In this document: positions 1 through 13,003 of the stretch, in pieces
Layout of the letters: each line of letters opens with the position of its first letter
Position numbering within the stretch: position 1 is the first letter of the stretch
NCBI GenBank assembly: GCA_016937175.1
Contig: JAFGWL010000055.1
Coordinates: forward strand, 1 to 16,566
Direction of reading: 5' to 3'
Source: Candidatus Mcinerneyibacteriota bacterium
GTDB taxonomy: Bacteria; Macinerneyibacteriota; Macinerneyibacteria; Macinerneyibacteriales; DSCS01
DNA: 16,566 nt
The notes under the pieces: generated by a model
Database searches by the model: none
The model's input: the letters and a program-made list of their open reading frames with translations, nothing else
What the model was told of the DNA's origin: nothing
Program-made: the position numbers and the translations under genes

Positions 1-157
1 CCGGAATCAGGCAGAGGAGCACATGTTCACGGGCGTAATCAACCAGCATATAAAAAGCTTCCAGGATCGCTCCCGTCACCCGCTGATGCTCAAAGGGGAT
101 GAAGTAAAGCCCCAGGAAGAGAGCCGTTAACAACCCGAGTTTTTTTATCTTGTCCAT
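1..157 (-). CDS. Putative ArsP/DUF318-type permease, N-terminal fragment
   Basis: This open frame starts at an ATG overlapping the end of arsC and runs off the left edge, giving 52 residues. It opens with a short basic stretch (MDKIKKLG) and a hydrophobic segment (LLTALFLGLYFIPF), followed by an amphipathic region containing YAREHVLLCLIP. From memory, a Y-A-R-E-H-V-L-x-C-L-x-P string is typical of the N-terminus of DUF318 permeases (the ArsP/SO_0444 group), which export organoarsenicals or metals. Position as the last visible gene of an arsenic operon fits that reading. A preceding AAGGAG lies inside arsC, so translation is probably coupled. Only the N-terminus is visible, so the catalytic or metal-binding part cannot be checked. 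Confidence 0.6.
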   Translation of the reverse strand, partial: MDKIKKLGLLTALFLGLYFIPFEHQRVTGAILEAFYMLVDYAREHVLLCLIP

Positions 158-579
158 TCCATCTCCTTGATCCATTGTTTCACTTTCTCCTCTATCCGAT
201 CGCGTATTTTCCGTGTCTCTTCCAGGATAAAAGACTCTTCTCCTTTTAATCCCGAAGGATCGGGAAAACCCCAATGCAGGCGCTCCGCTTCCCCGGGGAA
301 AACGGGGCATGTCTGCCCTACTTTAGGATCACAGACAGTGATGACGATGTCAAAGGATCTTCCGGCGTTATAGACATCCATGACGCTTTTTGGCTTATTG
401 CGGGAAATATCGATCCCCTTCTCTTTCATGGCTTCCACCACGTAGGGGTTTAAAACTCCGGGCTCTAAACCGGCGCTGTCGGCTGTGATCCGCCCTTTCC
501 CGTAAACGTTGGTAAAGGCGGCAGCCATCTGGCTCCGGGCGGAATTATGGACACAGATGAAAAGGGCTTTCTTTTCCAT
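145..579 (-). CDS. arsC: Arsenate reductase, low-molecular-weight phosphatase (thioredoxin-coupled) type
   Basis: A 144-residue cytosolic enzyme that reduces arsenate to arsenite so it can be exported. The N-terminal P-loop C9-x5-R15 (CVHNSAR) is the nucleophile loop of the low-molecular-weight tyrosine phosphatase fold. Two further cysteines, C83 and C91, sit in VCDPKVGQTC, the positions used for the intramolecular disulfide relay in B. subtilis-type ArsC. The general acid is the Asp in FPDPSG (around 107). I start at the ATG at 579; a GTG one codon upstream is also possible. It follows the thioredoxin-like gene with only a few bases between, and AAAGGG precedes the start. The C-relay implies reduction by thioredoxin, and the neighbouring CPKC protein is an obvious candidate partner (inference). 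Confidence 0.92.
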   Translation of the reverse strand: MEKKALFICVHNSARSQMAAAFTNVYGKGRITADSAGLEPGVLNPYVVEAMKEKGIDISRNKPKSVMDVYNAGRSFDIVITVCDPKVGQTCPVFPGEAERLHWGFPDPSGLKGEESFILEETRKIRDRIEEKVKQWIKEMEWTR

Positions 580-582
580 CAC

Positions 583-819
583 TTACCCTTTGAGCAGCTT
601 GAGGATCTCGTCTTTAGACGCTACCCGTCCGGATATCTTGACTTCATCGTCGATGGCCAGAGCCGGCGTCATCATGACCCCCATCTCCATTATGGTATCG
701 ATATCCGAGACCTTGACCACCTGGGCGTCGATGCCCGATTCCTCAACGGCCCGGCGGGCCTCTTCTTCCAGCTTCTTGCATTTGGGACATCCTGTCCCGA
801 GGATCTTGATAATCATCAT
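583..819 (-). CDS. Small thioredoxin-like (redox-active disulfide) protein
   Basis: A 78-residue protein with the minimal thioredoxin fold: a first strand ending in the dithiol C11-P-K-C14, a helix rich in Lys/Glu, and a later MTPALAI segment carrying the cis-proline expected opposite the active site. The size and the G-T-G-C-P-K-C motif match the archaeal/bacterial glutaredoxin-like family of MTH895/TM0996 ('redox-active disulfide protein 2'). The gene overlaps the acr3 stop (ATGA) and has AAAGGAGGC directly before its ATG. Placement between acr3 and arsC suggests it reduces oxidised ArsC, though members of this family also occur beside permease genes without arsC. No signal peptide is seen, so it should be cytosolic. 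Confidence 0.85.
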   Translation of the reverse strand: MMIIKILGTGCPKCKKLEEEARRAVEESGIDAQVVKVSDIDTIMEMGVMMTPALAIDDEVKISGRVASKDEILKLLKG

Positions 820-1871
820 GCCTCCTTTATTCCATTTTTACGGGGAAACCAATGTGTTGTCTTATTGGCGATCTTCACCAGCGTGAGCATCACCGGGACT
901 TCCACGAGGACACCCACAACCGTGGCCAAAGTCGCTCCCGACTGAAGCCCGAAGAGAGAGATGGCCACGGCTACAGCCAGCTCGAAGAAATTACTGGAGC
1001 CGATGAGAGCCGCCGGAGCGGCGATCTCATGCTTCAACTTCCATCCCTTCGCCCAGAGATAGGCCATAAAAAAGATAAAAAAGGTCTGAAGGGTGAGCGG
1101 AACGGCTATAAAAAGGATATGCAGAGGGTTTCCCAGGATCACATTCCCCTGAAAAGAGAAGATGATCACCAGGGTCAGAAGAAGCCCTGCAATAGTCGTG
1201 GAATGAAACTTAGGAAGGAATTTCTCAGTGAAATAAGCACTTCCTTTGTGCCTGATGACCATGGTCCGGGTGATATATCCGGCGGTGAGAGGGATCACCA
1301 CAAAAAGGACAACCGAAAGAAGCAGGGTGTTCCACGGAATCCCGATATCGCTGATCCCTAAGAGAAACGCCACAATGGGAGTAAACGCAAAAAGGATGAC
1401 CAGATCGTTCACCGCCACCTGCACCAGAGTATAGGAAGGGTTGCCGTCGGTGAGATAACTCCAGACAAAGACCATGGCTGTGCAGGGCGCTGCTCCCAGA
1501 AGTATGGCCCCGGCCAGATATTCTGTGGAAAGGCCCGTGGGGATCCACTGGGCAAAGACGACTTTTAAAAAGAACCAGGCGATGGCATACATGGTGAAGG
1601 GCTTGATGAGCCAGTTGGTGATGAGCGTCACGGTGAGCCCCCGCCCCTGTTTAGTGGCATTCACCACGCTTTTAAAATCCACTTTCAGCATCATGGGATA
1701 GATCATGAGCCAGATGAGGAGGGCAATGGGAATGGAGACCCGGGCATATTGCAGCTTCTCAAGCACACGGGGGACCGCAGGGAGAAATTGCCCGATAAGA
1801 ATCCCGGCTCCGATACACAAGAGGACCCAAATGGAAAGATAACGCTCAAAAAATTGCAATCGTTTTTTCAT
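816..1871 (-). CDS. acr3: Arsenite efflux transporter, Acr3 family
   Basis: A 351-residue inner-membrane protein with about ten hydrophobic segments that extrudes arsenite. Diagnostic Acr3 motifs are present: the conserved cysteine C130 in GAAPCTAMVFVWS, the following G-N-P-x-Y-T and N-D segments, and the glutamate E297 in GSSNFFELAVAVA. These residues are known to be essential in characterised Acr3 proteins. The length is normal for the family, with no fused reductase domain. The start ATG overlaps the arsR stop (ATGA), so expression is coupled to the repressor. It is distinct from the ArsB antiporter family, which lacks these motifs. Confidence 0.95.
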   Translation of the reverse strand: MKKRLQFFERYLSIWVLLCIGAGILIGQFLPAVPRVLEKLQYARVSIPIALLIWLMIYPMMLKVDFKSVVNATKQGRGLTVTLITNWLIKPFTMYAIAWFFLKVVFAQWIPTGLSTEYLAGAILLGAAPCTAMVFVWSYLTDGNPSYTLVQVAVNDLVILFAFTPIVAFLLGISDIGIPWNTLLLSVVLFVVIPLTAGYITRTMVIRHKGSAYFTEKFLPKFHSTTIAGLLLTLVIIFSFQGNVILGNPLHILFIAVPLTLQTFFIFFMAYLWAKGWKLKHEIAAPAALIGSSNFFELAVAVAISLFGLQSGATLATVVGVLVEVPVMLTLVKIANKTTHWFPRKNGIKEA

Positions 1872-2221
1872 GCCTTCTCCTTTCGTCCCGGACGGTCACA
1901 GACATAATTTCCGGTTATTAGTTTTTCTCTGTCCCGGCGGCATGTGTCGCACTCCATTTCGCTGATGATCTTCATCAGCGCTTTAGACTGCAGAGTCAAT
2001 TCAGGATTCAATTCATAATAGGTCCAGTAAGATGATTTTTCTTCGATGATCAAATCGACTGTTTTCATTTTTTTAAGATGTCCGGAGATCGTGGCATAAC
2101 TCAACCCCAGGATCCCCACAAGTTCACAGACGCAACACTTACGCTCCTGCAGAAGCTTGATGATACGAAGCCTTTTGCACTCTCCCAACACTTTCATCAC
2201 CTGAATGAACAAACAATCCAT
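1868..2221 (-). CDS. arsR: ArsR/SmtB-family arsenic-responsive repressor
   Basis: A 117-residue winged-helix repressor. The segment K-R-L-R-I-I-K-L-L starts the fold, the recognition helix is in LSYATISGHLKKM, and the wing is around EEKSSYWTYYEL. The metalloid site C-C-V-C (29-32) matches the C-x-C of the E. coli ArsR type. A second pair C91/C94 near the C-terminus could add ligands. I start at the ATG at 2221 because GGAGG lies 8 nt upstream. The longer frame begins with TTG at 2269 and would put the promoter inside the coding sequence. It heads the arsenic operon and probably autoregulates through the region just upstream. Confidence 0.9.
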   Translation of the reverse strand: MDCLFIQVMKVLGECKRLRIIKLLQERKCCVCELVGILGLSYATISGHLKKMKTVDLIIEEKSSYWTYYELNPELTLQSKALMKIISEMECDTCRRDREKLITGNYVCDRPGRKEKA

Positions 2222-2240
2222 TTCGCTTACCTCCGAAATC

Positions 2241-2269
2241 AATCTATTCCATTCTATCCATTTCGTCAA
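2241..2269 (-). promoter_or_regulatory. Candidate ars operon promoter with overlapping operator
   Basis: On the minus strand a TTGACG -35 (2264-2269) and a TAGATT -10 (2241-2246) are separated by 17 nt. The spacer contains two near-copies of an ATGGA-like element (ATGGATAGA and ATGGAATAG), a plausible ArsR contact site between the promoter boxes. The predicted start of transcription falls almost on the arsR ribosome binding site, which is unusually close, so the -10 call is uncertain. Confidence 0.4.
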
Positions 2270-2328: not shown

Positions 2329-2368
2329 AAAAAAATAAGGAATCCCGCGCTTCTCTGAAGAAGCGCGG
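2329..2368 (-). terminator. Intrinsic terminator at the end of the ycaO-ABC-propeller operon
   Basis: A perfect 10-bp stem (arms 2345-2354 and 2359-2368, CCGCGCTTCT and AGAAGCGCGG) with a CTGA/TCAG loop lies 11 nt after the propeller stop codon. On the minus strand it is followed after about 9 nt by seven T residues. The T run is slightly distant, but position and stem strength fit termination, separating this operon from ars. Confidence 0.7.
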
Positions 2369-2379
2369 AATTGAGAGTT

Positions 2380-3414
2380 CTATTCGATATGACTGATGAT
2401 CAGCTCATGACTGTTAAGAGAAAATTTCTCTTTTTCTTCATCCCATACATATTTCTGATACGCTACAGACCCGTCCTCTCCAAAGGGATAAACAAGAACG
2501 ACGTCAAGTTCCTTCTGATCCTCTACAATGATGAAGCCGTCAAACTCTCCCTCCCATGTATAGGACTCAAGTAAGGACTTCGTCTCCCCTTCGGGAAGTG
2601 CCGTCAAAATCAAATAACCGTCTTTGTAGCAGGTGGTCATCATCACACTGGGGCGGGGAGGCATTCCCCCTTTCTTGACAAAATAGGCAGCTTTGGTTTT
2701 TGTAATCAACTCAGGCCTGTCATTCTCAAAAGAGTAAAACTCAAGCTCGCCGTTGAATATTCCTGAGTTTAACAATCCCCGGGGCGCTACGGTGACCCTA
2801 TACGCTGACTCCATGACTTTTGTCGGGGTCAGCTTTGTTTTGTCTACCGTCCCGTAACCTGAGACAAATTCCCCCTTTAAATTATATTCGGAGATCTTAT
2901 AGTCGGACATGGCCGTGGTTGCAAGCAGGCGTCCGGTTTCTAAGACATCAAGGCTCACGATCTGGCCGCTGTCAATGTAAAATTCATCTTCAAAGGCCAG
3001 TTCCCCGGTTACAGGATCGACAGTAAGGAGCAGGACCTTATTGTTCTTGGAGTCAGTGATATAGGCAGTGCCCTCTTTTATTACCCACAGATTACTGTAC
3101 TCGCTCATTTCCCCCGGTCCGGTGCCCGGTTTGTCATACTCGGATATGATTTTCCCCTCCATGGAAAAAGAAATAATAGAATCAGTTGTCCTGTTCTGAG
3201 CTATGATAAAATCGCGATAACAAAAGATATTAGTCAAAAACCCGGGCTTTTCCAATGAAACGACCATCTTTTCACGGCACTCCCCTTTGACTTCGTTTTT
3301 GTCAAACTGTCCGATCGTATCAGCTTTCCTCATACATGATTGAGCAGTCAAAAGAAGAACAGATAAAAGGATAAAAAACAGTCTTTTACGAAAGCCGGTT
3401 ATATTGCTGAGCAT
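2380..3414 (-). CDS. Six-bladed beta-propeller lipoprotein associated with the peptide cluster
   Basis: A 344-residue exported protein. Residues 9-26 form a signal peptide (RKRLFFILLSVLLLTAQS) ending in C27, so it is probably lipidated, although the lipobox AQSC is non-canonical. After it come repeated strand-rich units with S/T-D-S-x-N-K-V-type hairpins, and the motif G-T-G-P-G-E (97-102), a hallmark of the six-bladed beta-propeller family often found in Bacteroidota beside small secreted peptides. The start ATG lies 29 nt inside the end of the exporter gene and is preceded by GGGAGG at a 5-nt spacing, so translation is coupled to the exporter. No catalytic residues are recognisable. A surface receptor, display or chaperone role for the exported peptide is inference. 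NHL-type proteins are a looser alternative. Confidence 0.8.
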   Translation of the reverse strand: MLSNITGFRKRLFFILLSVLLLTAQSCMRKADTIGQFDKNEVKGECREKMVVSLEKPGFLTNIFCYRDFIIAQNRTTDSIISFSMEGKIISEYDKPGTGPGEMSEYSNLWVIKEGTAYITDSKNNKVLLLTVDPVTGELAFEDEFYIDSGQIVSLDVLETGRLLATTAMSDYKISEYNLKGEFVSGYGTVDKTKLTPTKVMESAYRVTVAPRGLLNSGIFNGELEFYSFENDRPELITKTKAAYFVKKGGMPPRPSVMMTTCYKDGYLILTALPEGETKSLLESYTWEGEFDGFIIVEDQKELDVVLVYPFGEDGSVAYQKYVWDEEKEKFSLNSHELIISHIE

Positions 3415-5122
3415 AGACGCCTCCCTTGCTTAATAATTCTTCGTGAACCCCCTCTTCGACAACGGCTCCTTCATTCAGGACAAAAATACGATGGCAACCG
3501 GAGATCGTATTCAACCGATGCGCCACGACAAAGACGATCATCTCTTCATTGATCCTGTCGATAATGTCAGAAATATACTTCTCTGAAACATTATCAATAT
3601 TAGATGTAGCTTCATCAAGGACAAGTATTTGCGGCTTTCTGACTAAGGCCCGGGCAATAGCGATCCGCTGTTTTTGACCGACAGATAGATTTGTTCCCCG
3701 TTCTTCTATGATTGTATTCTCTTTATCTTTTAAACCGCTGACAAACTCCCACACATGAGCCTTTTTTAATGCTTCGATCACATCTTCCCGGCGCGCCTCC
3801 CTATTCCCAAAAGCAACATTATTATAGATGGTGTCATTGAACAAAAAGGGCTCCTGCTCGACCAGGGCAGTCTTCTCCCGTAATGTATACATCATTTTTC
3901 TGTCCATGGGGACTCCGTTGATCAACACCGAACCCTCGAATTCATAGAGTCCCATGATGATGTTGATTAGTGTAGTCTTCCCCGCTCCGGATGACCCCAT
4001 GATACCGATCTTCTCCCCCCTCTTCCCCTTAATATGGATCTCCTTGAGAACGGGCTTTCCCGTCTCATATTCAAACCGTATATCTTTCAGTTCGACCTCA
4101 AGGATCTCCTTTTTGAACACATCTCTCTCCTTAGAGACTTCGGGTAATGCCAGGATCTCGTCGATTCGGAAAAGCGCTACTCTTAATTTCTGAATTTCAC
4201 TGTTAAACCCGATAAAACTGGACGCCGGCCCAAAGACAAAATTCATCAGGCTCATAAAGGTTACAAAATTACCGATGGTAATGTTTCCGATGATGATCTG
4301 ATATCCGCCGTACCCCAATAGGAGCAAAGGAGAGATGGTCCCGATAAAACTCATAAAGGCAGCATTGAGCATCTCAAGCTTGTTCAACCGGACCAAATCC
4401 CGGTAAGTCAGAGTCACGGCTTTCATATAACGTCGGATATTATGCAGATTGCGGTTAAAAGCCCGGCACAGTTCCACAAGACTGATATTCTCCTGCAGGG
4501 ACTTCGTGGCCATGGCTGCTGTCTCATAAGCCAGAGAAGACTGCTTTTTGATCTTCTTTCCGAAATAATGAGTGGCTGCAACAAACAACGGGATTATCAT
4601 AAGGGAAAGCAGGGCCAGCTTCCATTCGATATAGATCATGGCGGAGACCCCGACGATAAAGGTCAGGACTTGTTTGATCATTTCAATGATCTTTTCACCG
4701 AACAGAATACTTAACCGGTGGGGATCGTCTTTCAAGCGCGACATCAGGTACCCGGTACCGTATTTTTTAAACTCATTCAATTTTACACGTGCCAGCTTTT
4801 CAAAAAGGACCCGCCTGATATCGATGATTATCTTGTTGTTGACCTTATAGAAGAGAACCCCCACAAAAAAGAGCTGCAAAGCTTTTAGCAGATGGACCAA
4901 AAAGAGAAGGCCCACGGCAATCAACAGCATCCGTACGTCTTTATTGGGGAAGACGACATCGATGACGTACCCCATGGCAAAGGGACGGGGGAGAAGCATT
5001 AATGATCCTGCCAGGACCAGGATGCCGCCCAGAATGATCTTCCATCGATACATTCTGACTTCTTTTAAAACGAGCCGCAAAGCAGGTGACAGAGCTTTTC
5101 CCGCTCCTTTTTTTTTCTTCAT
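3386..5122 (-). CDS. Type I ABC exporter (fused membrane and ATPase domains)
   Basis: A 578-residue half-transporter that should work as a homodimer in the inner membrane. Residues about 25-310 contain six hydrophobic segments of the exporter fold. The ATPase domain follows from about 340: Walker A GSSGAGKT (376-383), Q-loop Q423, signature LSVGQ (479-483), Walker B ILVLDE (499-504) and switch histidine H535. There is no N-terminal C39 peptidase domain, so any precursor cleavage must be done elsewhere. It lies between ycaO and the propeller gene, overlapping the latter by 29 nt, with GGGGAG before the start. By context it exports the product of the nine small genes. Similar half-transporters also export lipids or drugs, so the substrate is inferred. 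Confidence 0.93.
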   Translation of the reverse strand: MKKKKGAGKALSPALRLVLKEVRMYRWKIILGGILVLAGSLMLLPRPFAMGYVIDVVFPNKDVRMLLIAVGLLFLVHLLKALQLFFVGVLFYKVNNKIIIDIRRVLFEKLARVKLNEFKKYGTGYLMSRLKDDPHRLSILFGEKIIEMIKQVLTFIVGVSAMIYIEWKLALLSLMIIPLFVAATHYFGKKIKKQSSLAYETAAMATKSLQENISLVELCRAFNRNLHNIRRYMKAVTLTYRDLVRLNKLEMLNAAFMSFIGTISPLLLLGYGGYQIIIGNITIGNFVTFMSLMNFVFGPASSFIGFNSEIQKLRVALFRIDEILALPEVSKERDVFKKEILEVELKDIRFEYETGKPVLKEIHIKGKRGEKIGIMGSSGAGKTTLINIIMGLYEFEGSVLINGVPMDRKMMYTLREKTALVEQEPFLFNDTIYNNVAFGNREARREDVIEALKKAHVWEFVSGLKDKENTIIEERGTNLSVGQKQRIAIARALVRKPQILVLDEATSNIDNVSEKYISDIIDRINEEMIVFVVAHRLNTISGCHRIFVLNEGAVVEEGVHEELLSKGGVYAQQYNRLS

Positions 5123-5153
5123 CTTCTCCCCTTATCTTTAATGAATCACCGCA

Positions 5154-7016
5154 TCAGGAGGGCGCAACAGCTGTCCACTGAAGATCACGCTGATCGATAT
5201 GTCTTTCTTTGAAGGCTTCAATCAGTCTCACTGTGGAATCGTAGCGAGAGCGTGTCAGGCAGGCATCGGATAATTCACACTGTTCACAATCAGGACACTT
5301 GGGGAATTTTGTATACCGGAATATATTCTCCCTTTCTTTCATATCTTCACAGACTTTTTCAATCAGCTCTCCGTCAAAACCCGCTTTTGACAACTCTTCG
5401 GCTATCTGTCCCTCTTCCTTCTTTTCGACCTTCAACTCGAGATACTTCTTTATCCCTTCATAATAGGGCTCTTTTTCTTCTTTTCGCAGCTCCAGGAATT
5501 TACAAAAATTATCGTACGCTTTTTCATCAAACCCTAATTTATACCAGAGCTGTGTCAGAAAAAAGGAGAGATTCAATCTCTTCCAGTAAGACGAATACTT
5601 GAACTCGATATTCAGCAGCTCACTCAGGAGCCTGTTGGGGGAAAAATGCTCCAGTTTTTCAGCGATACGGATGAGCTCCTCTCTTGAACAGCTGTTCATG
5701 TCAAATATCGGATCCAGCACTTTGTCCAGCTCGATGATGTGAAAGACCTTTGTCGGCAAGGTAGACCTGGGGCTTTTTCTCCCCTTGACAGAGACTTCCG
5801 GGATATAGATGATGTAAGTCGGGAAATCCAGATAGGAAACATTCCGAATATAGACATCATAGCCCAGATCATGCACTTTTTTGATGACCTTTTTCACTTC
5901 TTCCTCATAGGACTCCGCCGGAGTAAAGACCGCCGGGTCGAATGAATAAGATTCCTTCTCTTCAAAAAGGCTCAAGGGATAGATTCCGCTTCCGTCTTTG
6001 ACAAACTCGGAAAAATTGATCACGCAATCCATTTGAGAGGAGGTATCTTTTTTAATAAAATACTCATGCCGCTCTTTCGGGATATCCAAAAGCCTCTTTC
6101 TAAAAAACTCATCGTCCCGAATCCCCTGGTAGATCTCTGTCAAGCAACGGCTAAGGGCTACCTGGAACGAGGTATCCGACCCGACATTCAGCTTATATTT
6201 GTTTTCTTTGTCATCAATGATCATGACACCCATGGAAGGCAATCCGATACCGGCGGAAAAGTCTTTCACGACCACACGATACTGTCCGCTTTGTTCGATG
6301 CTTTTAATGATCTTATACTCCCGCTTGAAGAGTTTAAGATACTCCACAGGGATTGTAGGTGGCGTCAGTTCGTTATAGTAGATCTCCGCAGCAGCCCACC
6401 GCTCCATGATCTCAGCCAGTCCCTGGAAAATAGCCTCCGCTTCGGAGTTACCCGCAGCCATCCCATTGGAGCCAATGGCCAATATCAGCATGTTTAACGG
6501 CAGATCGATAAGCTCTCCGCTTTTTGTATCCAAAAAAGGAATAGAAAGAAGCCCGGGATAACCGTTCTCTTCCAGCCTTTTGAAATAGAGATCGATAAAC
6601 TTCTCCCTGTTTTCCCCTTTATGGGAAATAAGGTCATTTTTTATGGCATCCGGTAAAGCCATGAACTCATCCCGGGTCATATACTTTTCATCAGGATAAT
6701 AGCAAACTCCGGTTTTATCCTTTACTTTTGTTGTAAGGATCCGCGAAAAATTACCCATAAACCCGTTCTGGAGACGCTCCATAAATTCCGCATATCCGCT
6801 GGCTAAGGAAAACTCCTTTGTCCTGCCTTTTCCATTAGTCCCGAATTTTCCCCTCTCATCATCCAGTTCGACACGGCAGGAATGAATCCCGGGAAGAGGA
6901 TTCGTCGTAAAAGTCACCTCAGGTTTCAAATCGATTTTTGACAAAATATTCTTGATCTTTCTAACTGTGTTGTTAGCGCTCCTTGTCTTGTAGGGGCGTT
7001 TCATTGTGTTGAACAT
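5154..7016 (-). CDS. YcaO-domain protein, E. coli YcaO-like, with C-terminal cysteine motif
   Basis: A 620-residue protein. YcaO enzymes use ATP to activate a peptide backbone amide, giving azolines, thioamides or amidines. Seen here: T-N-G-K-G (60-64) followed by a helix with E-F-M-E-R, the nucleotide-binding stretch SEAEAIFQGLAEIMER (191-206), and QVALSRCLTEIYQG (285-298). The T-N-G-K-G-x-T-K and S-N-G-M-x-A-G-N segments resemble E. coli YcaO more than azoline-forming TOMM cyclodehydratases. The C-terminus lacks the P-x-P-x-P tail of those enzymes. After a helical region (about 440-560) comes C574-x2-C577-x2-C580-x5-C586, a possible Fe-S or zinc site. I start at the ATG at 7016 because AGGAGG lies 7 nt upstream; an in-frame TTG at 7034 lies upstream of that site. 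Its substrate is inferred to be the nine peptides encoded just upstream. No TfuA, ThiF-like or dehydrogenase partner is visible. Confidence 0.92.
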   Translation of the reverse strand: MFNTMKRPYKTRSANNTVRKIKNILSKIDLKPEVTFTTNPLPGIHSCRVELDDERGKFGTNGKGRTKEFSLASGYAEFMERLQNGFMGNFSRILTTKVKDKTGVCYYPDEKYMTRDEFMALPDAIKNDLISHKGENREKFIDLYFKRLEENGYPGLLSIPFLDTKSGELIDLPLNMLILAIGSNGMAAGNSEAEAIFQGLAEIMERWAAAEIYYNELTPPTIPVEYLKLFKREYKIIKSIEQSGQYRVVVKDFSAGIGLPSMGVMIIDDKENKYKLNVGSDTSFQVALSRCLTEIYQGIRDDEFFRKRLLDIPKERHEYFIKKDTSSQMDCVINFSEFVKDGSGIYPLSLFEEKESYSFDPAVFTPAESYEEEVKKVIKKVHDLGYDVYIRNVSYLDFPTYIIYIPEVSVKGRKSPRSTLPTKVFHIIELDKVLDPIFDMNSCSREELIRIAEKLEHFSPNRLLSELLNIEFKYSSYWKRLNLSFFLTQLWYKLGFDEKAYDNFCKFLELRKEEKEPYYEGIKKYLELKVEKKEEGQIAEELSKAGFDGELIEKVCEDMKERENIFRYTKFPKCPDCEQCELSDACLTRSRYDSTVRLIEAFKERHIDQRDLQWTAVAPS

Positions 7017-7023
7017 CTTTATA

Positions 7024-7029
7024 CCTCCT
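7024..7029 (-). promoter_or_regulatory. Strong ribosome binding site fixing the ycaO start
   Basis: A full AGGAGG on the minus strand sits 7 nt before the ATG at 7016. It lies downstream of the alternative TTG at 7034, which therefore would read through its own best ribosome binding site. This decides the start in favour of the ATG. Confidence 0.85.
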
Positions 7030-7164
7030 GTCAAATGATGCTCAGAACCGACATCTCCGGGTGATTTTAGCCTGAAGGCATAGAGGCTGGTATCGGGTGA
7101 TTCACTTAAATTTCATCAGTCGAAACACCCCTGATGTATCGGTGCTTTCAAATGAGAAGCCGAT
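7030..7164 (-). other. Leader region between precursor terminator and ycaO
   Basis: No gene fits here. The stretch holds two 9-bp direct copies of CGGGTGATT (7060-7068 and 7095-7103), an inverted pair CATCAG/CTGATG (7114-7119 and 7131-7136) and a small GCCTGAAGGC hairpin. A TATAAT (7165-7170, minus strand) sits at the end of the upstream T run but has no good -35. The repeats could be operator or RNA-leader elements controlling ycaO expression; this is only suggested by their presence. Confidence 0.3.
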
Positions 7165-7202
7165 ATTATAAAAAAAAAAGGCTCCCGAAGGAGCCCTTTT
7201 TC
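7165..7202 (-). terminator. Intrinsic terminator after the precursor array, before ycaO
   Basis: A textbook hairpin: GGCTCC (7180-7185), a CGAA/TTCG tetraloop and GGAGCC (7190-7195), extended by flanking A/T pairs, followed on the minus strand by about ten T residues. It begins some 25 nt after the stop of the ninth small gene and lies about 150 nt before the ycaO start. It should end most precursor transcripts while letting some read through. Confidence 0.88.
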
Positions 7203-7225
7203 AATTATGTGCACCGGGAAAGATC

Positions 7226-7354
7226 TCAGAGAACAGGACGGCCTGTCTCTTCAGTCGTTTCCTTATCTTCTTTTTCATTGTAATAATGAAAATGAAGTTC
7301 GAAATAGAAACCAGCTTCCACGCTATCAACGGCATTGACATCTTTGAATTCCAT
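7226..7354 (-). CDS. Precursor peptide 9 of the GRPVL family
   Basis: A 42-residue peptide beginning MEFKDV and ending EETGRPVL. The middle is aromatic (AGFYFELHFHYY, about 14-25) followed by N-E-K-E-D-K, clearly related to copies 1, 5, 6 and 7. It has no cysteine. An AACGAAAGGAGT ribosome binding region before the ATG is shared almost exactly with copy 1, so the duplicated unit includes the translation signal. It is the last copy of the array and is followed directly by the terminator. Small size and family repetition rather than homology to a known precursor support the call. Confidence 0.85.
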   Translation of the reverse strand: MEFKDVNAVDSVEAGFYFELHFHYYNEKEDKETTEETGRPVL

Positions 7355-7368
7355 GGGAACTCCTTTCG

Positions 7369-7494
7369 TTAAATAAGAGGCCGTCCCGTTTCTTCGATAC
7401 CAGGACAGTCATAGTAAGTCATATTCTCCATCTCTTTATCAAGATACAACAAAAGCGTTTCCGCTTCTTTTGCTTTAATGTCTTGATAATCCAT
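7369..7494 (-). CDS. Precursor peptide 8 (divergent copy, GRPLI ending)
   Basis: A 41-residue member of the array: MDYQDI at the start, EETGRPLI at the end. It is the only copy whose last two residues differ. The middle (about 7-33) is unlike the other copies: a charged helix-like stretch with LLLYL, then TYYDCPG with a single cysteine at C30. The ribosome binding site is weak (GACGG only, 26 nt gap from copy 7), so it may be poorly translated or decaying. The frame is intact, which favours a functional variant. Confidence 0.75.
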   Translation of the reverse strand: MDYQDIKAKEAETLLLYLDKEMENMTYYDCPGIEETGRPLI

Positions 7495-7520
7495 ATATTG
7501 AGCCCGTCAAAAAACTTCCG

Positions 7521-7649
7521 TCAAAGGACAGGCCGGCCTGTATCTTCTACCATATCTTTATCACTCTTCTCATTGTGATAATTGAATTTCAGGTAGAACA
7601 TGAATACAGCCTCGTCTTCGATCATGACTTCATTTTCTTTATATTCCAT
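7521..7649 (-). CDS. Precursor peptide 7 of the GRPVL family
   Basis: A 42-residue peptide with the N-terminal block MEYKEN, a hydrophobic aromatic middle (AVFMFYLKFNY, 14-24), the motif H-N-E-K-S-D-K and a C-terminal EDTGRPVL. No cysteine. The stop of copy 6 lies inside its own ribosome binding site (TAAGGAGG, 5 nt before the ATG), so the two are tightly coupled. It belongs to the main subgroup with copies 1, 5, 6 and 9. Confidence 0.85.
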   Translation of the reverse strand: MEYKENEVMIEDEAVFMFYLKFNYHNEKSDKDMVEDTGRPVL

Positions 7650-7658
7650 GTTTCCTCC

Positions 7659-7787
7659 TTAGAGAACCGGACGGCCTGTTTCTTCTGTCGCGTCTTTTTC
7701 ACTTTTTTCATTGTTATAGTCGAAATAGGCGAAAAAGAAGAACGCGGCTTCTTCCGAATAGGCTTCGGTACTTTCCATGTACTTCAT
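7659..7787 (-). CDS. Precursor peptide 6 of the GRPVL family
   Basis: A 42-residue peptide starting MKYMES, with four consecutive phenylalanines in AAFFFFAYFDY (14-24), then N-N-E-K-S-E-K and a terminal EETGRPVL. No cysteine. A second in-frame ATG three codons in is possible, but the M-K-Y start aligns with copy 5. It begins 9 nt after the copy 5 stop with only a modest GGGAAT signal, so it probably relies on translational coupling. Confidence 0.83.
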   Translation of the reverse strand: MKYMESTEAYSEEAAFFFFAYFDYNNEKSEKDATEETGRPVL

Positions 7788-7796
7788 GGCTATTCC

Positions 7797-7925
7797 CTAC
7801 AGGACAGGACGGCCTGTCTCATCCAGGTCATTCTTGTCGCTTTTCTCATTATTGTAATAAAAAGCCACCAGAAAGAATCCGGCTTGAGGATCCATATTCT
7901 CAACGTTCTCTTCTAAATATTTCAT
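7797..7925 (-). CDS. Precursor peptide 5 of the GRPVL family
   Basis: A 42-residue peptide starting MKYLEE. The central AGFFLVAFYYNNEKSDK (15-31) is nearly identical to copy 1, and the end is DETGRPVL. No cysteine. A GAAAGGAGT ribosome binding site lies just before the ATG. The copy 1 and copy 5 centres point to a recent duplication, while their N-terminal blocks differ more than expected. Confidence 0.85.
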   Translation of the reverse strand: MKYLEENVENMDPQAGFFLVAFYYNNEKSDKNDLDETGRPVL

Positions 7926-7943
7926 CTCAGACTCCTTTCATTG

Positions 7944-8081
7944 TTAAAGGACAGGGCGGCCCGTCTCTTCTGAGCTGTTTTCCTTACCCACTTCTGTTTC
8001 TCCCATTGCGGTTTTGAAGTAGAAATTATTCCAATCCAACCCCCCGGGTCCTTCGTTTTTTTTCACATCTCTGAAATCCAT
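7944..8081 (-). CDS. Precursor peptide 4 (divergent middle)
   Basis: A 45-residue peptide: MDFRDV at the start and EETGRPVL at the end, but a middle rich in glycine and asparagine (GPGGLDWNNFYF, 11-22) without the N-N-E-K-S block. No cysteine. Ribosome binding site AACGAAAGGAA precedes the ATG, again resembling copies 1 and 9. Conserved ends with an exchanged centre suggest a diversified product. Confidence 0.82.
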   Translation of the reverse strand: MDFRDVKKNEGPGGLDWNNFYFKTAMGETEVGKENSSEETGRPVL

Positions 8082-8107
8082 TGATGTTCCTTTCGTTCGC
8101 TAACCTC

Positions 8108-8236
8108 TTAGAGAACGGGTCGTCCCGTTTCTTCAAATCCGCTTATCTCAGCAGACAGACAAATCGTTTCTGTTGTTAATCCATACCAATGGGGATCAAC
8201 AGGCTTATCAACTTGTTTCACTTCTTTGTAATCCAT
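8108..8236 (-). CDS. Precursor peptide 3 (divergent, one cysteine)
   Basis: A 42-residue peptide: MDYKEV start, EETGRPVL end, and an unrelated centre with PHWYGLTTETICLSAE (15-30) that contains a cysteine at C26 and several threonines. Its ribosome binding site is AAGGAAT close to the ATG. The codons for the tail (GAAACGGGACGACCC) differ from those of most other copies, so this is an older branch of the array, sharing that codon style with copy 8. Confidence 0.82.
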   Translation of the reverse strand: MDYKEVKQVDKPVDPHWYGLTTETICLSAEISGFEETGRPVL

Positions 8237-8262
8237 TAGATTCCTTTTCTTTGGTATGACCA

Positions 8263-8400
8263 TTAAAGAACAGGACGGCCTGTCTCTTCCAGTTTCGCTT
8301 TATCACTTTCCTGGGAGGAGTAATAAACCGATCTGGCCATAGTCGCGAACTGATAGGGATACCTTTCTGCGTTCTCTGTCTTCATGTCTTTAAAATCCAT
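8263..8400 (-). CDS. Precursor peptide 2 of the GRPVL family
   Basis: A 45-residue peptide: MDFKDM start, EETGRPVL end. The centre reads YPYQFATMARSVYYSSQESDK split over 14-34, keeping the Y-Y...E-S-D-K pattern of the main subgroup but with S-S-Q instead of N-N. No cysteine. The ribosome binding site (AAAGGAA) is about 12 nt from the ATG, so translation may be weaker than for copies 1, 7 and 9. Confidence 0.82.
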   Translation of the reverse strand: MDFKDMKTENAERYPYQFATMARSVYYSSQESDKAKLEETGRPVL

Positions 8401-8424
8401 TAAAACACTTTTTCCTTTAGGCTT

Positions 8425-8550
8425 TTAAAGAACAGGGCGGCCTGTCTCTTCTACCCCTTCTTTAGTGCTTTTCTCATTGTTGTAATAGGCCGCGATCACC
8501 AAAAAGAAACCAGCTTCAGGCTCAACGTTCTGCACATCTTTGTACTCCAT
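8425..8550 (-). CDS. Precursor peptide 1 of the GRPVL family (first in the array)
   Basis: A 41-residue peptide: MEYKDV start, an AGFFLVIAAYYNNEKSTK centre (13-30) and EETGRPVL end. No cysteine, no signal peptide, and no double-glycine cleavage motif. AAAGGAG lies 6 nt before the ATG. It is the promoter-proximal copy, about 40 nt downstream of a candidate extended -10. All nine copies keep the same architecture and spacing (units of roughly 150 nt), which makes real genes far more likely than chance frames. I recognise no named precursor family. Confidence 0.87.
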   Translation of the reverse strand: MEYKDVQNVEPEAGFFLVIAAYYNNEKSTKEGVEETGRPVL

Positions 8551-8595
8551 AGTACACTCCTTTCGTTTAACGGTTAAACACAAGACAACAATGGG

Positions 8596-8604
8596 ATTGT
8601 ATCA
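8596..8604 (-). promoter_or_regulatory. Candidate extended -10 promoter for the precursor array
   Basis: TGATACAAT on the minus strand is an extended -10 (TG-n-TACAAT). The predicted transcript would start near 8589, leaving a leader of about 40 nt before precursor 1. No clear -35 is seen at the right distance; the upstream TTCACG is too close. The weak -35 would fit activator dependence. Confidence 0.4.
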
Positions 8605-8650
8605 AAATAAAAAAACGTGAATATCACCGTAAACACTGTTATTTTGTAAT

Positions 8651-8681
8651 GGAATTCAATGATTTGAAATCATTGAATTCC
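8651..8681. promoter_or_regulatory. 31-bp palindrome upstream of the precursor array
   Basis: Perfect 15-bp arms (GGAATTCAATGATTT and its complement) flank a single central base at 8666. It lies between the LuxR-type regulator gene and precursor 1, roughly 50-80 bp upstream of the candidate -10. No T run follows on either strand, so it does not look like a terminator. Position and symmetry fit a dimeric DNA-binding site; an mRNA-stabilising hairpin is the alternative. Confidence 0.55.
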
Positions 8682-8790
8682 CTTTGATATAAGAAAATAA
8701 TCAAATGCCCGGTTAAAATGATAAATCACAGTAGCCGAGCCGTGTCACAAACTATCTTTATTAGGATTAAGAAAAAATATTGAGAAAAGA

Positions 8791-9498
8791 CTAATGTTGA
8801 CAGGGGAAAATCTGATCAAGCGCTAAATAGCGTTGGCTGAAAAAACTGGCAAACAGGTAGAGATTCTCCGAATCACTGATATCAAGCTTATCCATGATTT
8901 TGTAACGATATGTCTCAACTGTTTTGACACTGATAAAAAGATCCTGGGCAATACCGGCTGGTTTTTTACCCTGCCCCAGAAGTTGAAGGATAACCGTTTC
9001 TCTGTCAGATAAATATCTGATATTGGGAATCAGATTAAAATAATCCTCTATGACACATTTACTGACATACATCTTTTTTTGATCGAGAATCTGATTAACC
9101 GCTTTACTGATCTCATCGATTTTTTCTTTCTTCGAGATGATTCCTTTGATCTTATTATTCATCAGCTTTTCAATACATATGATAGTATCCGGCTCAAGAA
9201 GCAAGACGATGTTACCTGTCTTTTGAAAGGATTCTGCAGCGCTTCGCTCATGGCAATAATAACAAATATCAATAATAACAAGATCGATTTTTTTGTTTTC
9301 CAGAAGGCTGTGGACTTTACTGTCCACATTACTGAAACACCCGATATTATAATCAGAGGGAAATACATTTTTAATGCTTTCCATAAGGATGGGGACTTTA
9401 GAAACGAGGACGACATTTTTCGTCTTACTGCTGTACTCCGTCTGGCTGATCATCCTCTCAAAATCACAAAGAGTCGTGTTCATGCCGGTATCATCCAT
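8791..9498 (-). CDS. LuxR-type transcriptional regulator with degenerate receiver domain
   Basis: A 235-residue regulator. Residues about 28-145 have the alternating strand/helix pattern of a response-regulator receiver, with the strand KIDLVIID ending at the usual phospho-acceptor position. The acidic pair normally found after the first strand is replaced by S-K (VVLVSKVP), so phosphorylation control is doubtful. Residues about 165-225 form a GerE helix-turn-helix: LSDRETVILQLLGQG, IAQDLFISVKTVETYRYKIM. It starts 6 nt after the CPBP gene stop and is the last gene before the palindrome and precursor array, so it is the likely regulator of the array. It is visibly more A+T-rich than the his genes. 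Confidence 0.85.
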   Translation of the reverse strand: MDDTGMNTTLCDFERMISQTEYSSKTKNVVLVSKVPILMESIKNVFPSDYNIGCFSNVDSKVHSLLENKKIDLVIIDICYYCHERSAAESFQKTGNIVLLLEPDTIICIEKLMNNKIKGIISKKEKIDEISKAVNQILDQKKMYVSKCVIEDYFNLIPNIRYLSDRETVILQLLGQGKKPAGIAQDLFISVKTVETYRYKIMDKLDISDSENLYLFASFFSQRYLALDQIFPCQH

Positions 9499-9504
9499 AA
9501 TGAC

Positions 9505-10233
9505 CTACTTCAGAATCACTTTCAGTAAAGATTCCACTCCGGACCCGGTGATATTAAACAGAGCATGAACGGCCACGGCTGGCCAGAGGCTCCCTGTCTT
9601 TTCTCTGAAAAAACCTGCAACCAGCCCCACGACCACGGCACCCGCTACGATCACAAGGACATATTTCGCCTCGACCTTCATGGTCAAAAGCCCCAAATGG
9701 ACCAATCCGAACAAAAGAGCCGCAATGATCACCGGCATACTCAGGGATATCGCACCCATGGAGAAACGCCAATGGCTCAAAGGCGACAACAGCCCCTGAA
9801 TCAGTCCCCTGAATAGAATCTCTTCAGCAAAGCTTGCCAGAATCCAGACAAAGAGGATCGTCTGAAGCAGGGAGTAATCCGCCGAGGGCCCGACGGGTTT
9901 TCCAATGAATGAAGGGACAATGAGATAGAGGATGAACTGAATAAAAACGCCCCCTATCAAAGCCCAAAGAAGAGGAGCCCGAAAATCATTCAGGGTACAT
10001 GATCTCAATCCGAAATCCGCAAACTTCCCCGTCCCATGCAAAATTATGATAAGAAAAGAGAAAAGGGCCATGAGAAGATGAGTCCAGACGGGGGTAAAGA
10101 AAGAACCCGGCGCGATCAGCCCGGAAGACTGAAGCATGGCGGGAATCATCGAGGATAAAGAAAAGATAACCATGACGGCCAACAGAGCAACAACAATTTT
10201 CCATGCGTAGATCAAAAGACCAGCCCCTTTCAT
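9505..10233 (-). CDS. CPBP (CAAX/bacteriocin-processing) family intramembrane protease
   Basis: A 242-residue polytopic membrane protein with about six to eight hydrophobic segments. All family motifs are present: E-E-x3-R (E137/E138 and R142 in AEEILFRG), the F-G-x2-H motif (H179 in FGLVHLG) and H-x3-N (H223/N227 in HALFN). These form the active site of glutamic-type intramembrane proteases related to Rce1. Bacterial members act in bacteriocin self-immunity and peptide maturation. Start uncertain: the ATG at 10233 is used here; a TTG at 10242 is in frame, and neither has a good ribosome binding site. It forms an operon with the LuxR-type gene, so it may cleave the peptides, protect the cell, or take part in signalling (inference). 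Confidence 0.88.
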   Translation of the reverse strand: MKGAGLLIYAWKIVVALLAVMVIFSLSSMIPAMLQSSGLIAPGSFFTPVWTHLLMALFSFLIIILHGTGKFADFGLRSCTLNDFRAPLLWALIGGVFIQFILYLIVPSFIGKPVGPSADYSLLQTILFVWILASFAEEILFRGLIQGLLSPLSHWRFSMGAISLSMPVIIAALLFGLVHLGLLTMKVEAKYVLVIVAGAVVVGLVAGFFREKTGSLWPAVAVHALFNITGSGVESLLKVILK

Positions 10234-10252
10234 AATTTTCAATAATATAATT

Positions 10253-10280
10253 ATTTTATCTCTTTTCCCCTTCTTGTCAA
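10253..10280 (-). promoter_or_regulatory. Promoter of the CPBP-luxR operon
   Basis: On the minus strand a consensus -35 TTGACA (10275-10280) and a -10 TAAAAT (10253-10258) are 16 nt apart. Transcription would begin about 10246, only some 13 nt before the ATG at 10233, giving a very short leader without a ribosome binding site. Confidence 0.65.
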
Positions 10281-10429: not shown

Positions 10430-10463
10430 AAGAAAGAATAAAGGCATGGGGAAACATGCCCTC
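10430..10463 (-). terminator. Candidate terminator of the histidine operon
   Basis: GGCATG (10443-10448) and CATGCC (10455-10460) form a 6-bp stem, extended by a G-T and an A-T pair, with a six-base loop. It starts a few bases after the hisD stop and is followed on the minus strand by a pyrimidine tract, TTTATTCTTTCTTTC. The T tract is interrupted, so efficiency is uncertain. Confidence 0.6.
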
Positions 10464-10466
10464 GTT

Positions 10467-11750
10467 TCAACCTCTCTTTTTCAGCCGGCTTCCCGCCGAC
10501 CGGGCGTGCCCTTTAAGGCCTTCGGCCTCCGCCATGACCTGTGCTGCTGCATAGATACGGGAGTCACACCTCTCATCAGCCTGTAAAACTGTCTGACGCT
10601 TTAAAAAAGTCCAGACATTGAGCCCGTTCTGAAACCGCGCCGTTCCACCTGTGGGCAGTGTATGGTTAAGTCCGCTCACATAGTCCCCCAGGACTTCAGC
10701 GCTTTTCGCCCCGGCAAAAAGCGAACCGTAATTGGAAAGAACGTCCAGGTACAGGCCCGGCTCTTCTACATGGAGCTGGAGATGTTCCGGTGCCAGGCTG
10801 TCAGCCAGGGCGGCCGCCTCCTCAAAAGTTGAGACAAGGAAACATGCGCTCTTCTCTGTAAACGAGATCCGGGCTGTCTCTGCATCCGGTATCGTGTCCA
10901 GGAGAGCTTGCACCTCCTTCAGGATCCGCTCTCTTGTCTCTTCCCCGAACACGGCTAAAAGAGGCATGGCGTGGGTATCATGCTCCGCCTGGGCATAGAG
11001 GTCAGCCGCCACCAGAGCCGGATCGCAAGAGTCATCGGCGATGACCAGGATCTCTGAGGGCCCGGCTACAAGATCGATTCCCACATCACCGAAGACCTGC
11101 CTTTTAGCTTCAGTAACCCAGGAGTTCCCAGGCCCTGCGATAATATCCACTTTAGGGATACTTTCCGTCCCGTAGGCCATGGCAGCGATAGCCTGTGCTC
11201 CCCCCAGAGCATATACTTCTTCAATACCCAGAAGAGCTGCTGCAGCGAGGATCACGGGATGGGGTTTCCCATCCTTTCCGGGAGGGGTGAAGAGTGCGAT
11301 CTCTTTCACCCCTGCTACCCTGGCCGGTGCAATACCCATCAGGAGAGAAGAGAAGAGGGGAAAACGCCCTCCGGGGACGTAGACCCCCGCACGGCGCACG
11401 GGGACGATCCGCTCCCCTGCCCGGAGCCCCGGGGCTGTCTCCTTTTCTCTGAAGGAAAAGGGGTGAGTCTCTCCCAGCTGGAAACGGGCAAAATCTTCCA
11501 GGCGGGCATAACTCTCAAGAAGTGCGAGCCTTAATTTCCCAGGCAATGGCGGCACTTTTGCCATGGCTTCTTTGGCGACACGAAAATCGTGAATTTCGGC
11601 CAGATCGAATTTGAGAGAATAGGCGCGCAACTCTTCGTCTCCCCCCCGGATCACTCCTTTTATGATCTCTTCCACGTCACGCCTAATACTCTCCTGCCGA
11701 TCCACTTTTCGCTTCTGAAGAAAGTCCGTTACGGTCATTTTTTTTATCAT
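10467..11750 (-). CDS. hisD: Histidinol dehydrogenase
   Basis: A 427-residue zinc enzyme that oxidises histidinol to histidine with two NAD+, the last pathway step. The zinc ligands line up as Q254 and H257 (YAQAEHDTH), D356 (VLGDYVSG) and H415 (EGLKGHA); the catalytic pair is E322-H323 in PEHLQLHVE. The GPGNSWVTEAKRQVFG segment and the LNHTLPTGGTARF region are characteristic. Length is normal for the family. The ATG overlaps the hisA-hisIE stop (ATGA) with GGAGG 5 nt upstream. It is the last gene of the operon here, an unusual place because hisD often lies near the front. Confidence 0.96.
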   Translation of the reverse strand: MIKKMTVTDFLQKRKVDRQESIRRDVEEIIKGVIRGGDEELRAYSLKFDLAEIHDFRVAKEAMAKVPPLPGKLRLALLESYARLEDFARFQLGETHPFSFREKETAPGLRAGERIVPVRRAGVYVPGGRFPLFSSLLMGIAPARVAGVKEIALFTPPGKDGKPHPVILAAAALLGIEEVYALGGAQAIAAMAYGTESIPKVDIIAGPGNSWVTEAKRQVFGDVGIDLVAGPSEILVIADDSCDPALVAADLYAQAEHDTHAMPLLAVFGEETRERILKEVQALLDTIPDAETARISFTEKSACFLVSTFEEAAALADSLAPEHLQLHVEEPGLYLDVLSNYGSLFAGAKSAEVLGDYVSGLNHTLPTGGTARFQNGLNVWTFLKRQTVLQADERCDSRIYAAAQVMAEAEGLKGHARSAGSRLKKRG

Positions 11751-13003
11751 CTCACCCTCCAGCTTCTCCGGCGGAGTTCCGCCAAGACTTCTTTGAAAGA
11801 GATCCCCTCTTTCTGCAGCAAGACAGTAACAAAATAAAGAAGGTCGGCGGCCTCCCAGATCTTGTTCTCCCGGTCTGTCCCCTCCACAAGCTCACGGGCC
11901 TCTTCCATGATCTTTTCCCGCACAAGGGTATCGTTCAGCGTTGCTGTGAAGGACCCAGGCGGAGGGTTTTGAAAACGGTCCCCGATGATTCCATATAGTT
12001 TCTCTAAGCTAAACGACAAGTTACCGAAACAGCTCTCTTCCCCTGTGTGACAGGCAGGTCCGGCCGGCCGGACCACAGCACGCAGGGTATCCGAATCGCA
12101 GTCAGGGCGGAAACGCAAAAATCTCATCACATTCCCTGAAGTCTCTCCCTTGGTCCACATTTTTTTTCGGGAACGTGAGTAGAAAGTCAACAGGCCGCTC
12201 TTCAAAGTCTTTTGAAGAGATTCCTCATCGGCCCAGGCCATCATGAGTGTCTCCCCCTCCTCGTTCTCAGCGATAACGGGAATCAGCCCCTTCTCATTAT
12301 ATTTCAGGGCCGCCGTAAAAACCTCTGCGCCTGAAAGAACTCCCGTATAAATAGCCATCCCCACCTGGACATGAGCTCCCAAAGCAGAGATCTTCCTGAT
12401 CTCGCCGACACCGGTGATCCCCCCGGCAGCGGTGACGGGAAGAGTCGTCTTCTGAATCAAGCGTTCGATTCCCCCGATATCGGCTCCCTGCATCAAGCCT
12501 TCCCGCTCCACGTTAGTGGCCAATATTCCCCACACTCCTTCCTCTAATTGCTCCAAAAGCCTCTCATCCGGATTTTCTTTCGTGTCTTTTCTCCAACCCT
12601 TTGTTACGACCTTTCCGTCCCGCGTATCCAAGGCAGCAATGATCCGCTCACGGCCCACGGCTTGCTGAAACTTTTTTAAAGCTTCTGAAGAGAATGTCCC
12701 GTCAGGAAAGAGGGCGCTTCCCAGAATCACTTTTTGCGCTCCCATCGAGAGGATCTCCCGGGCTTCTTCCGGGGTACGTATCCCCCCTCCCACGCGCGCC
12801 TCACATGCCAAAGCGATTCTTTTGATCAAACTTCTGTTCTCTCCTTCTTTTTTAGCTGCATCAATATCAATGACGGCCACCGGCCCCAGGGGAGACAGTT
12901 CTTTAATGACAGCCTCGACATCGATGCGTTCAATTATCAATGTCTCTCCCTGCTCCAGCTGGACGATACGTCCTTTAGATAAATCCATGGATGGAATCAG
13001 CAT
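11747..13003 (-). CDS. hisA-hisIE: Fused HisA isomerase and HisIE cyclohydrolase/pyrophosphatase
   Basis: A 418-residue protein joining three activities. Residues 1-235 are HisA, a (beta/alpha)8 ProFAR isomerase: D7 in MDLSKG, GGGIR (72-76), D126 in ALDTRDG, T163 in ATNVEREG. Residues about 240-345 are HisI: GETSGN (286-291), the metal-binding DCDSD (301-305) and cysteines C318/C325. Residues about 350-418 are HisE, with EEAREL (367-372) and WEAADLLY (383-390). The domains join without a linker, and the frame is continuous with no internal start signal. HisA strand 6 carries T-N-x3-E-G where T-D/E-x3-D-G is usual. It overlaps hisF by 7 nt and hisD by 4 nt. All steps 2-4 activities of the pathway are therefore on one chain. 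Confidence 0.93.
   Translation of the reverse strand: MLIPSMDLSKGRIVQLEQGETLIIERIDVEAVIKELSPLGPVAVIDIDAAKKEGENRSLIKRIALACEARVGGGIRTPEEAREILSMGAQKVILGSALFPDGTFSSEALKKFQQAVGRERIIAALDTRDGKVVTKGWRKDTKENPDERLLEQLEEGVWGILATNVEREGLMQGADIGGIERLIQKTTLPVTAAGGITGVGEIRKISALGAHVQVGMAIYTGVLSGAEVFTAALKYNEKGLIPVIAENEEGETLMMAWADEESLQKTLKSGLLTFYSRSRKKMWTKGETSGNVMRFLRFRPDCDSDTLRAVVRPAGPACHTGEESCFGNLSFSLEKLYGIIGDRFQNPPPGSFTATLNDTLVREKIMEEARELVEGTDRENKIWEAADLLYFVTVLLQKEGISFKEVLAELRRRSWRVR

Follow-up and report, generated by a model that had tools for sequence, protein, structure and literature searches.

Introduction

Most enzymes that tailor ribosomally synthesized and posttranslationally modified peptides (RiPPs) find their substrate by an N-terminal leader, and we know of few YcaO reactions that take place at a C-terminus. 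One of them is carried out by ItfB of the itf cluster of Bacteroides (Clark and Seyedsayamdost 2022), which is summarized in PMC11002830 and PMC10352776 as a YcaO that is fused to an Fe–S-type domain and forms a backbone amidine at the C-terminus of a peptide with the end Ile-Thr-Phe; another is that of MusD, a YcaO that works as an ATP-dependent peptidase on the C-terminus and removes a terminal Gly-Val (PMC10885120). Here, we analyzed contig JAFGWL010000055.1 of a Candidatus Mcinerneyibacteriota bacterium (assembly GCA_016937175.1; genome of 1.88 Mb), whose 16,566 nucleotides form the window of this study, an entire 16.6-kb contig, and in which a stand-alone ycaO gene lies behind an array of nine small peptide genes. 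We propose that this locus is likely a RiPP cluster whose YcaO would read a C-terminal tag of the peptides and modify the backbone there.

By its description, ItfB may resemble the window YcaO in its C-terminal cysteine-rich (Fe–S-type) region and in acting on a small precursor whose C-terminal tripeptide is conserved, and it has an exporter nearby as well; the features of this type seen in the window are a CPDCEQCELSDAC tail on the enzyme and the peptide end TGRPVL, which differs from ITF, and, unlike the itf cluster, the window contains no radical SAM gene, C39 peptidase exporter, TonB receptor, or Gly-Gly (GG) leader. With Escherichia coli YcaO (EcYcaO; structures 4q84–4q86), the window enzyme shares its whole-length fold and its ATP-site residues, but it differs by an identity of ~20% in the structural alignment, an extra four-cysteine (Cys4) tail, the adjoining peptide array, and a score far under the cut-off of the family model NF040716. 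As in linear azol(in)e peptide (thiazole/oxazole-modified microcin [TOMM]) clusters, a YcaO domain, an exporter, and a CPBP-type protease are present, the latter also occurring in SagE-containing clusters; unlike in these, there is neither a PxPxP C-terminus nor an E1-like/RiPP recognition element partner in the cluster, and the cores are nearly Cys-free. A Nif11-leader type of precursor (TIGR03798), ending in LRPIL, accompanies a relative with 44% identity to the window YcaO, whereas the window peptides carry neither a Nif11 nor any other known leader (no TIGR03798 match in the four window peptides scanned). Finally, an action on the last residues of the precursor would, by analogy, be shared with MusD, from which the window YcaO nonetheless differs in belonging to another branch and being a distant structural match.

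The Peptide Array

The nine small genes, delimited from the list of open reading frames (ORFs) and their alignment, are as follows:

7226..7354, minus strand: putative precursor peptide 9, end TGRPVL
7369..7494, minus strand: putative precursor peptide 8, end TGRPLI
7521..7649, minus strand: putative precursor peptide 7, end TGRPVL
7659..7787, minus strand: putative precursor peptide 6, end TGRPVL
7797..7925, minus strand: putative precursor peptide 5, end TGRPVL
7944..8081, minus strand: putative precursor peptide 4, end TGRPVL
8108..8236, minus strand: putative precursor peptide 3, end TGRPVL; without counterpart in the sister genome
8263..8400, minus strand: putative precursor peptide 2, end TGRPVL; without counterpart in the sister genome
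8425..8550, minus strand: putative precursor peptide 1, end TGRPVL

The nine tandem genes announced by the original prediction are indeed found as nine head-to-tail minus-strand ORFs (7226–8550) of 41, 42, or 45 amino acids (aa), most of them preceded by a Shine–Dalgarno-like stretch. In the paralogue alignment (n = 9), the initial Met and the T-G-R-P motif are invariant, position 3 is Y or F, an acidic pair stands ahead of the tag, and the C-terminus reads GRPVL in eight of the nine peptides and GRPLI in the ninth. When a profile of this family was searched against the genome, the nine array ORFs were retrieved at E values of 3e-20 to 9e-16, the next best match being at 0.4; since the profile matches these nine ORFs and nothing else convincing, the array is not a product of chance. 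Across the host phylum, represented by three genomes in the collection used, matches to the profile are confined to the genus. That no named class would be recognized also proved right as far as the peptides are concerned, for which Pfam and NCBIfam hold no matching family; a literature search for GRPVL peptides returned none, and a degenerate EETGRPVL pattern was not found in viral contigs. Fold prediction of the peptides, at low confidence, gives a single helix at positions 13–29.

A sister genome, from another species of the genus, encodes the YcaO at 86% identity together with eight peptides; the LuxR, CPBP, and his genes follow each other as in the window, and the ABC (ATP-binding cassette) gene is present from its start up to the contig end. 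Two window peptides have no counterpart there and one sister peptide is duplicated, which indicates that the array turns over. Over the seven orthologous pairs, nonsynonymous divergence (pN) is 0.13 for a synonymous divergence (pS) of 0.66, and pN drops to 0.04 in the last eight residues when it is 0.25 in the first seven after Met. On the basis of these overall and regional values, the array ORFs are genuine genes under purifying selection, which is strongest at the C-terminus.

The YcaO and Its Clade

The enzyme gene, the sole ycaO of the genome, is the following:

5154..7016, minus strand: YcaO, 620 aa; ATG start, in-frame TTG at 7034 possible; PF02624 E 1.6e-45

The protein belongs to the YcaO superfamily (PF02624 156 bits, cut-off 25.7), and its AlphaFold2 model (predicted local distance difference test score 89) superposes over its length on the EcYcaO structures 4q84–4q86, with template modeling (TM) scores of 0.76–0.81. 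The positions matching EcYcaO K9, S16, E75, E78, N187, E191, E199, E202, R203, R286, and E290 are kept, those from K9 to R286 being identical except for a T in place of S16, and the invariant residues of 30 clade and near-clade YcaOs coincide with them; from structures 4q85 and 4q86, we take these conserved residues to be those that bind ATP and Mg. With regard to known functional families, the equivalog model NF040716 (YcaO_for_S12/uL16-type) gives 197.7 bits for a cut-off of 700. The Cys4 tail is followed by a helix and the last residues LQWTAVAPS; such tails are also borne by many Clostridia and Bacteroidota YcaOs and are absent from the OsmC-YcaO type. As a side observation, several Clostridia loci (L041 6309–11803, L027, L105, and L106) encode Cys4-tailed YcaOs without an obvious small peptide, that of L041 being directly behind xanthine-dehydrogenase-like subunits (by reading) and others at prophage contig ends; these enzymes possibly have a protein substrate.

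YcaO homologues were gathered from Genome Taxonomy Database (GTDB) genomes and genome searches, and a maximum-likelihood tree of 55 of them places the window YcaO within a six-member clade with a support of 100/100. Besides the two members from this genus, the clade includes a Negativicutes metagenome-assembled genome (MAG; L029, 44% identity, the closest outside relative), a Prevotellaceae MAG (L031, 41%), a Bacteroides-genus genome (L136, 39–40%), and an Oligoflexia MAG (L030, 39%). All six members have, directly upstream of ycaO, a small ORF ending in R-[PS]-x-[LIM]: outside the genus, these are a 109-aa ORF ending in YLRPIL in L029, two ORFs of 37–38 aa in L031 (MKYFT...NRSLI and MKYFT...NRSVI), a 48-aa ORF ending in FNRSIL in L136, and, in L030, an ORF of 25 aa that has an AAGGAG ribosome site and ends in LSRPRM, which fits the looser R-[PS]-x-[LIM] form only. 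In the L031 genome, the MKYFT start pattern has, in addition to these two known sites, two further exact matches. The L029 ORF is preceded by a LuxR-type gene, as is the window array, and it matches the Nif11-like RiPP leader model TIGR03798 at E 1.4e-4, with 22 bits for a cut-off of 32 and thus below it.

The original prediction had asked for homologues flanked by frames ending in GRPV[LI], and in this literal form the motif is confined to the genus; it is since the GRPVL-type expression matches only the genus across all YcaO loci that we turned to the looser R-[PS]-x-hydrophobic form, which holds throughout the six-member clade. When the first three relatives from outside the genus were read, no rule had yet been formulated; the rule R[PS][VIL][VIL]-stop was then drawn from the L029 and L031 ORFs and the window, and selects 3 of the 5,777 short ORFs in 76 homologous loci, namely the one of L029 and the two of L031. 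L136, fetched once this rule was fixed, agreed with it. The remaining neighbors vary among the six loci, so that the constant unit is the tagged peptide plus the YcaO; a protease and an exporter recur in changing guise (CPBP and ABC in the window, M48 and ABC in L031, M29-like and MFS in L030). A putative precursor gene co-located with a tailoring enzyme across lineages, as is expected of a RiPP system, is found in 6/6 clade members, one of these genes encoding a Nif11-leader precursor. This clade-wide pairing bears out the earlier idea that the peptides are substrates of the YcaO, which we consider very probable from the gene contexts.

Several points nevertheless weigh against our interpretation. 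The pairing is drawn from six loci, two of which belong to one genus, and the L030 peptide has merely 25 aa, ends in RPRM, and was found by a slightly looser rule. In the stretches of L136 and L029, no exporter is seen beside the peptide–YcaO pair. Cys4-tailed YcaOs also occur in non-RiPP surroundings, as in L041, where the gene follows xanthine-dehydrogenase-like ones, and a RiPP function cannot be deduced from the tail by itself. Finally, the ItfB sequence was not recovered from the Bacteroides-genus and other genomes searched, so any kinship of ItfB to the clade is putative. Genes for a C39 exporter, an outer-membrane barrel, and radical-SAM/SPASM proteins, which recall the itf cluster, occur in lineages that are sister to the six-member clade.

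Proposed Pathway and Alternative Explanations

In the pathway that we propose, nine related precursor peptides would be produced from one array, and the stand-alone YcaO would bind their conserved C-terminal tag (TGRPVL, more generally R-[PS]-x-hydrophobic-COOH) and, with ATP, activate a backbone amide in or beside it. The variable acidic/aromatic segment ahead of the tag would be the diversified part; the ABC transporter would export the product, the CPBP protease would probably trim it, and the LuxR-type protein would control transcription. The strong conservation of the last residues and their recurrence before ycaO argue that the tag is probably what the YcaO reads, and we lean slightly toward the modified bond lying within it. 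By analogy with ItfB, the nearest precedent, we tentatively suggest a backbone amidine as the product.

The alternative that survives best is a RiPP cluster in which the YcaO would turn a backbone amide into a thioamide, with sulfide taken from the environment or from a house-keeping carrier. Such a reaction has precedents in E. coli YcaO on uL16 and in McrA/thioamitide enzymes; E. coli YcaO is also the closest solved structure and the source of the best NCBIfam score for the window YcaO, and it thioamidates uL16 without TfuA (PMC13063428). The absence of TfuA (PF07812) from the genome, where it was sought, counts only weakly against a thioamide. However, E. coli YcaO acts on a folded protein loop and not on a C-terminal tag, and we regard this outcome as rather unlikely. 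It is improbable, to a further degree, that the YcaO uses water and removes the tag as a follower by ATP-dependent cleavage: the removal of Gly-Val by MusD, whose structure 7u58 is among the fold matches, sets a precedent, and a near-invariant tag behind a variable part is what a removable follower would look like, but MusD comes from the branch of the cyanobactin heterocyclases and matches the window YcaO distantly, at a TM of about 0.4.

Outside the RiPP interpretation, the YcaO could have a house-keeping protein substrate (uL16 or similar) next to an unrelated array of, for instance, pheromones read by the LuxR-type regulator. YcaOs with protein substrates do exist (PMC13063428), and a regulator, a protease, and an exporter are also compatible with a peptide-signaling locus; against this, the YcaO is paired with R-[PS]-x-hydrophobic peptides in 6/6 clade members, whose phyla and other neighbors differ, it scores 198 for a cut-off of 700 with NF040716, and it is missing from the other genome of the order, all of which make this scenario very improbable. 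Hardly credible at all is a tag by which the CPBP protease, and not the YcaO, would recognize the peptides for sorting or cleavage, since, for all that this protein matches MrtJ/myxosortase models, neither a transmembrane segment nor a basic end follows the motif and no CPBP gene is seen next to the tagged peptides in L029, L030, L031, and L136, where the YcaO is the sole constant neighbor; the myxosortase-like reading was accordingly rejected.

Two established classes were likewise set aside. An azoline-forming TOMM was rejected on a SagD cyclodehydratase score (TIGR03604) of 52 bits for a cut-off of 219.25, the lack of a PxPxP C-terminus on the YcaO, and a total of two Cys over the nine peptides. 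The GG/C39 class was rejected because a Pfam scan detected no C39 peptidase domain (PF03412) in the ABC exporter protein and no GG cleavage site common to the nine peptides was seen.

Gene Neighborhood

The array sits between a LuxR/CPBP pair upstream, on the minus strand, and the YcaO–ABC exporter–lipoprotein operon downstream. The established gene order (CPBP, LuxR, nine-peptide array, YcaO, ABC exporter, lipoprotein) is as originally described, with Pfam and NCBIfam matches in agreement. Besides the genes listed above, the locus comprises the following features:

2341..2372, minus strand: intrinsic terminator at the end of the YcaO–exporter–lipoprotein operon; 14-bp stem then U-rich tail, z -5.95
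2380..3414, minus strand: lipoprotein-like protein, 344 aa; possible 6-bladed beta-propeller (PF17170 E 0.0013, under the family cut-off; signal/lipobox by reading)
3386..5122, minus strand: ABC exporter half-transporter, membrane plus ATPase (PF00664 and PF00005 matches)
7173..7202, minus strand: hairpin between the peptide array and ycaO; terminator/attenuator or processing hairpin, z -4.1
8651..8681, no strand assigned: perfect 31-bp palindrome between the LuxR gene and the array, z -6.4
8791..9498, minus strand: LuxR/NarL-type regulator with a degenerate receiver domain (PF00196 E 2e-13; PF00072 just 0.0099)
9505..10242, minus strand: CPBP (Rce1-like) glutamic intramembrane protease (PF02517 E 2.2e-18; EEILFR and H motifs by reading)
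10253..10280, minus strand: promoter-like site TTGACA-16-TAAAAT ahead of the CPBP gene (11/12 consensus positions)

The lipoprotein-like protein is present as predicted, the beta-propeller assigned to it resting on a weak match. With regard to the terminators that were expected at both outer borders, that at 2341–2372 is strong, when the hairpin at 10440–10463 is instead assigned to the end of the his operon, because it lies on the minus strand directly after the hisD-like gene. The two inner elements had not been mentioned before. A compensatory change preserves the stem at 7173–7202 in the sister genome; as the U-run after it is not preserved, this hairpin may be a processing or partial-termination element. 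In the palindrome at 8651–8681, the inner 23-bp dyad is the same in the sister genome except for the center base, and the outer arms are altered in a compensating way; the identity of the dyad suits an operator of the LuxR-type regulator, for which the palindrome is a candidate, along with a 5' hairpin or terminator.

Two neighboring sets of genes deserve mention in their own right. An ORF of the his operon at window 11747–13003 (L026 7760–9019; 418–419 aa) reads as a HisA–HisI–HisE fusion, which seems unusual, and an arsenic-resistance set borders the cluster at window 145–2269 (ArsC-like, thioredoxin-like, ACR3-like, and ArsR-like, by reading).

Other YcaO loci came into view during this analysis. 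L045 (5500–13960) combines two large YcaO-matching ORFs, one of 929 aa, with several precursors that look Nif11/GG-like by reading. L124 (1275–6568; G386 C199), on a Prevotellaceae contig, is a string of several RiPP-like modules that include, besides a GG peptide and a radical-SAM-like gene, a truncated second YcaO (2230–2493). In Bacteroides, a separate cluster with a YcaO (L138 4622–12773, L055, and L101) has radical-SAM-like genes, a peptidase-like gene, and a peptide of 37–42 aa with WCDxC..EGHP (by reading).

Significance

There are precedents for YcaO RiPPs, for arrays of several precursors, and for YcaO chemistry at a C-terminus; what is new is the peptide family, the YcaO clade, and the leader-independent R-[PS]-x-hydrophobic tag that is common to several phyla. 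Whether there is a RiPP class defined by an enzyme reading R-[PS]-x-hydrophobic-COOH, whatever leader or core precedes it, seems to us evenly poised, and equally so that, in such a class, the same YcaO clade acts on leaderless peptides of 25–48 aa and on a Nif11-leader precursor across several phyla. For the bacterium, a diversified array that comes with an exporter and its own regulator would suit a family of peptides acting in antagonism or signaling.

As a short C-terminal tag is the only substrate feature common to the clade, the question of recognition is directly testable, here with one enzyme that comes with nine natural cores. The pairing also provides a rule to search for more clusters, that is, a Cys4-tailed YcaO whose gene has a small ORF ending in R-[PS]-x-[LIM] immediately upstream. 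If the proposed mode of recognition is true, the tag would amount to a portable handle by which the backbone of a peptide could be modified at its C-terminus in an ATP-dependent way.

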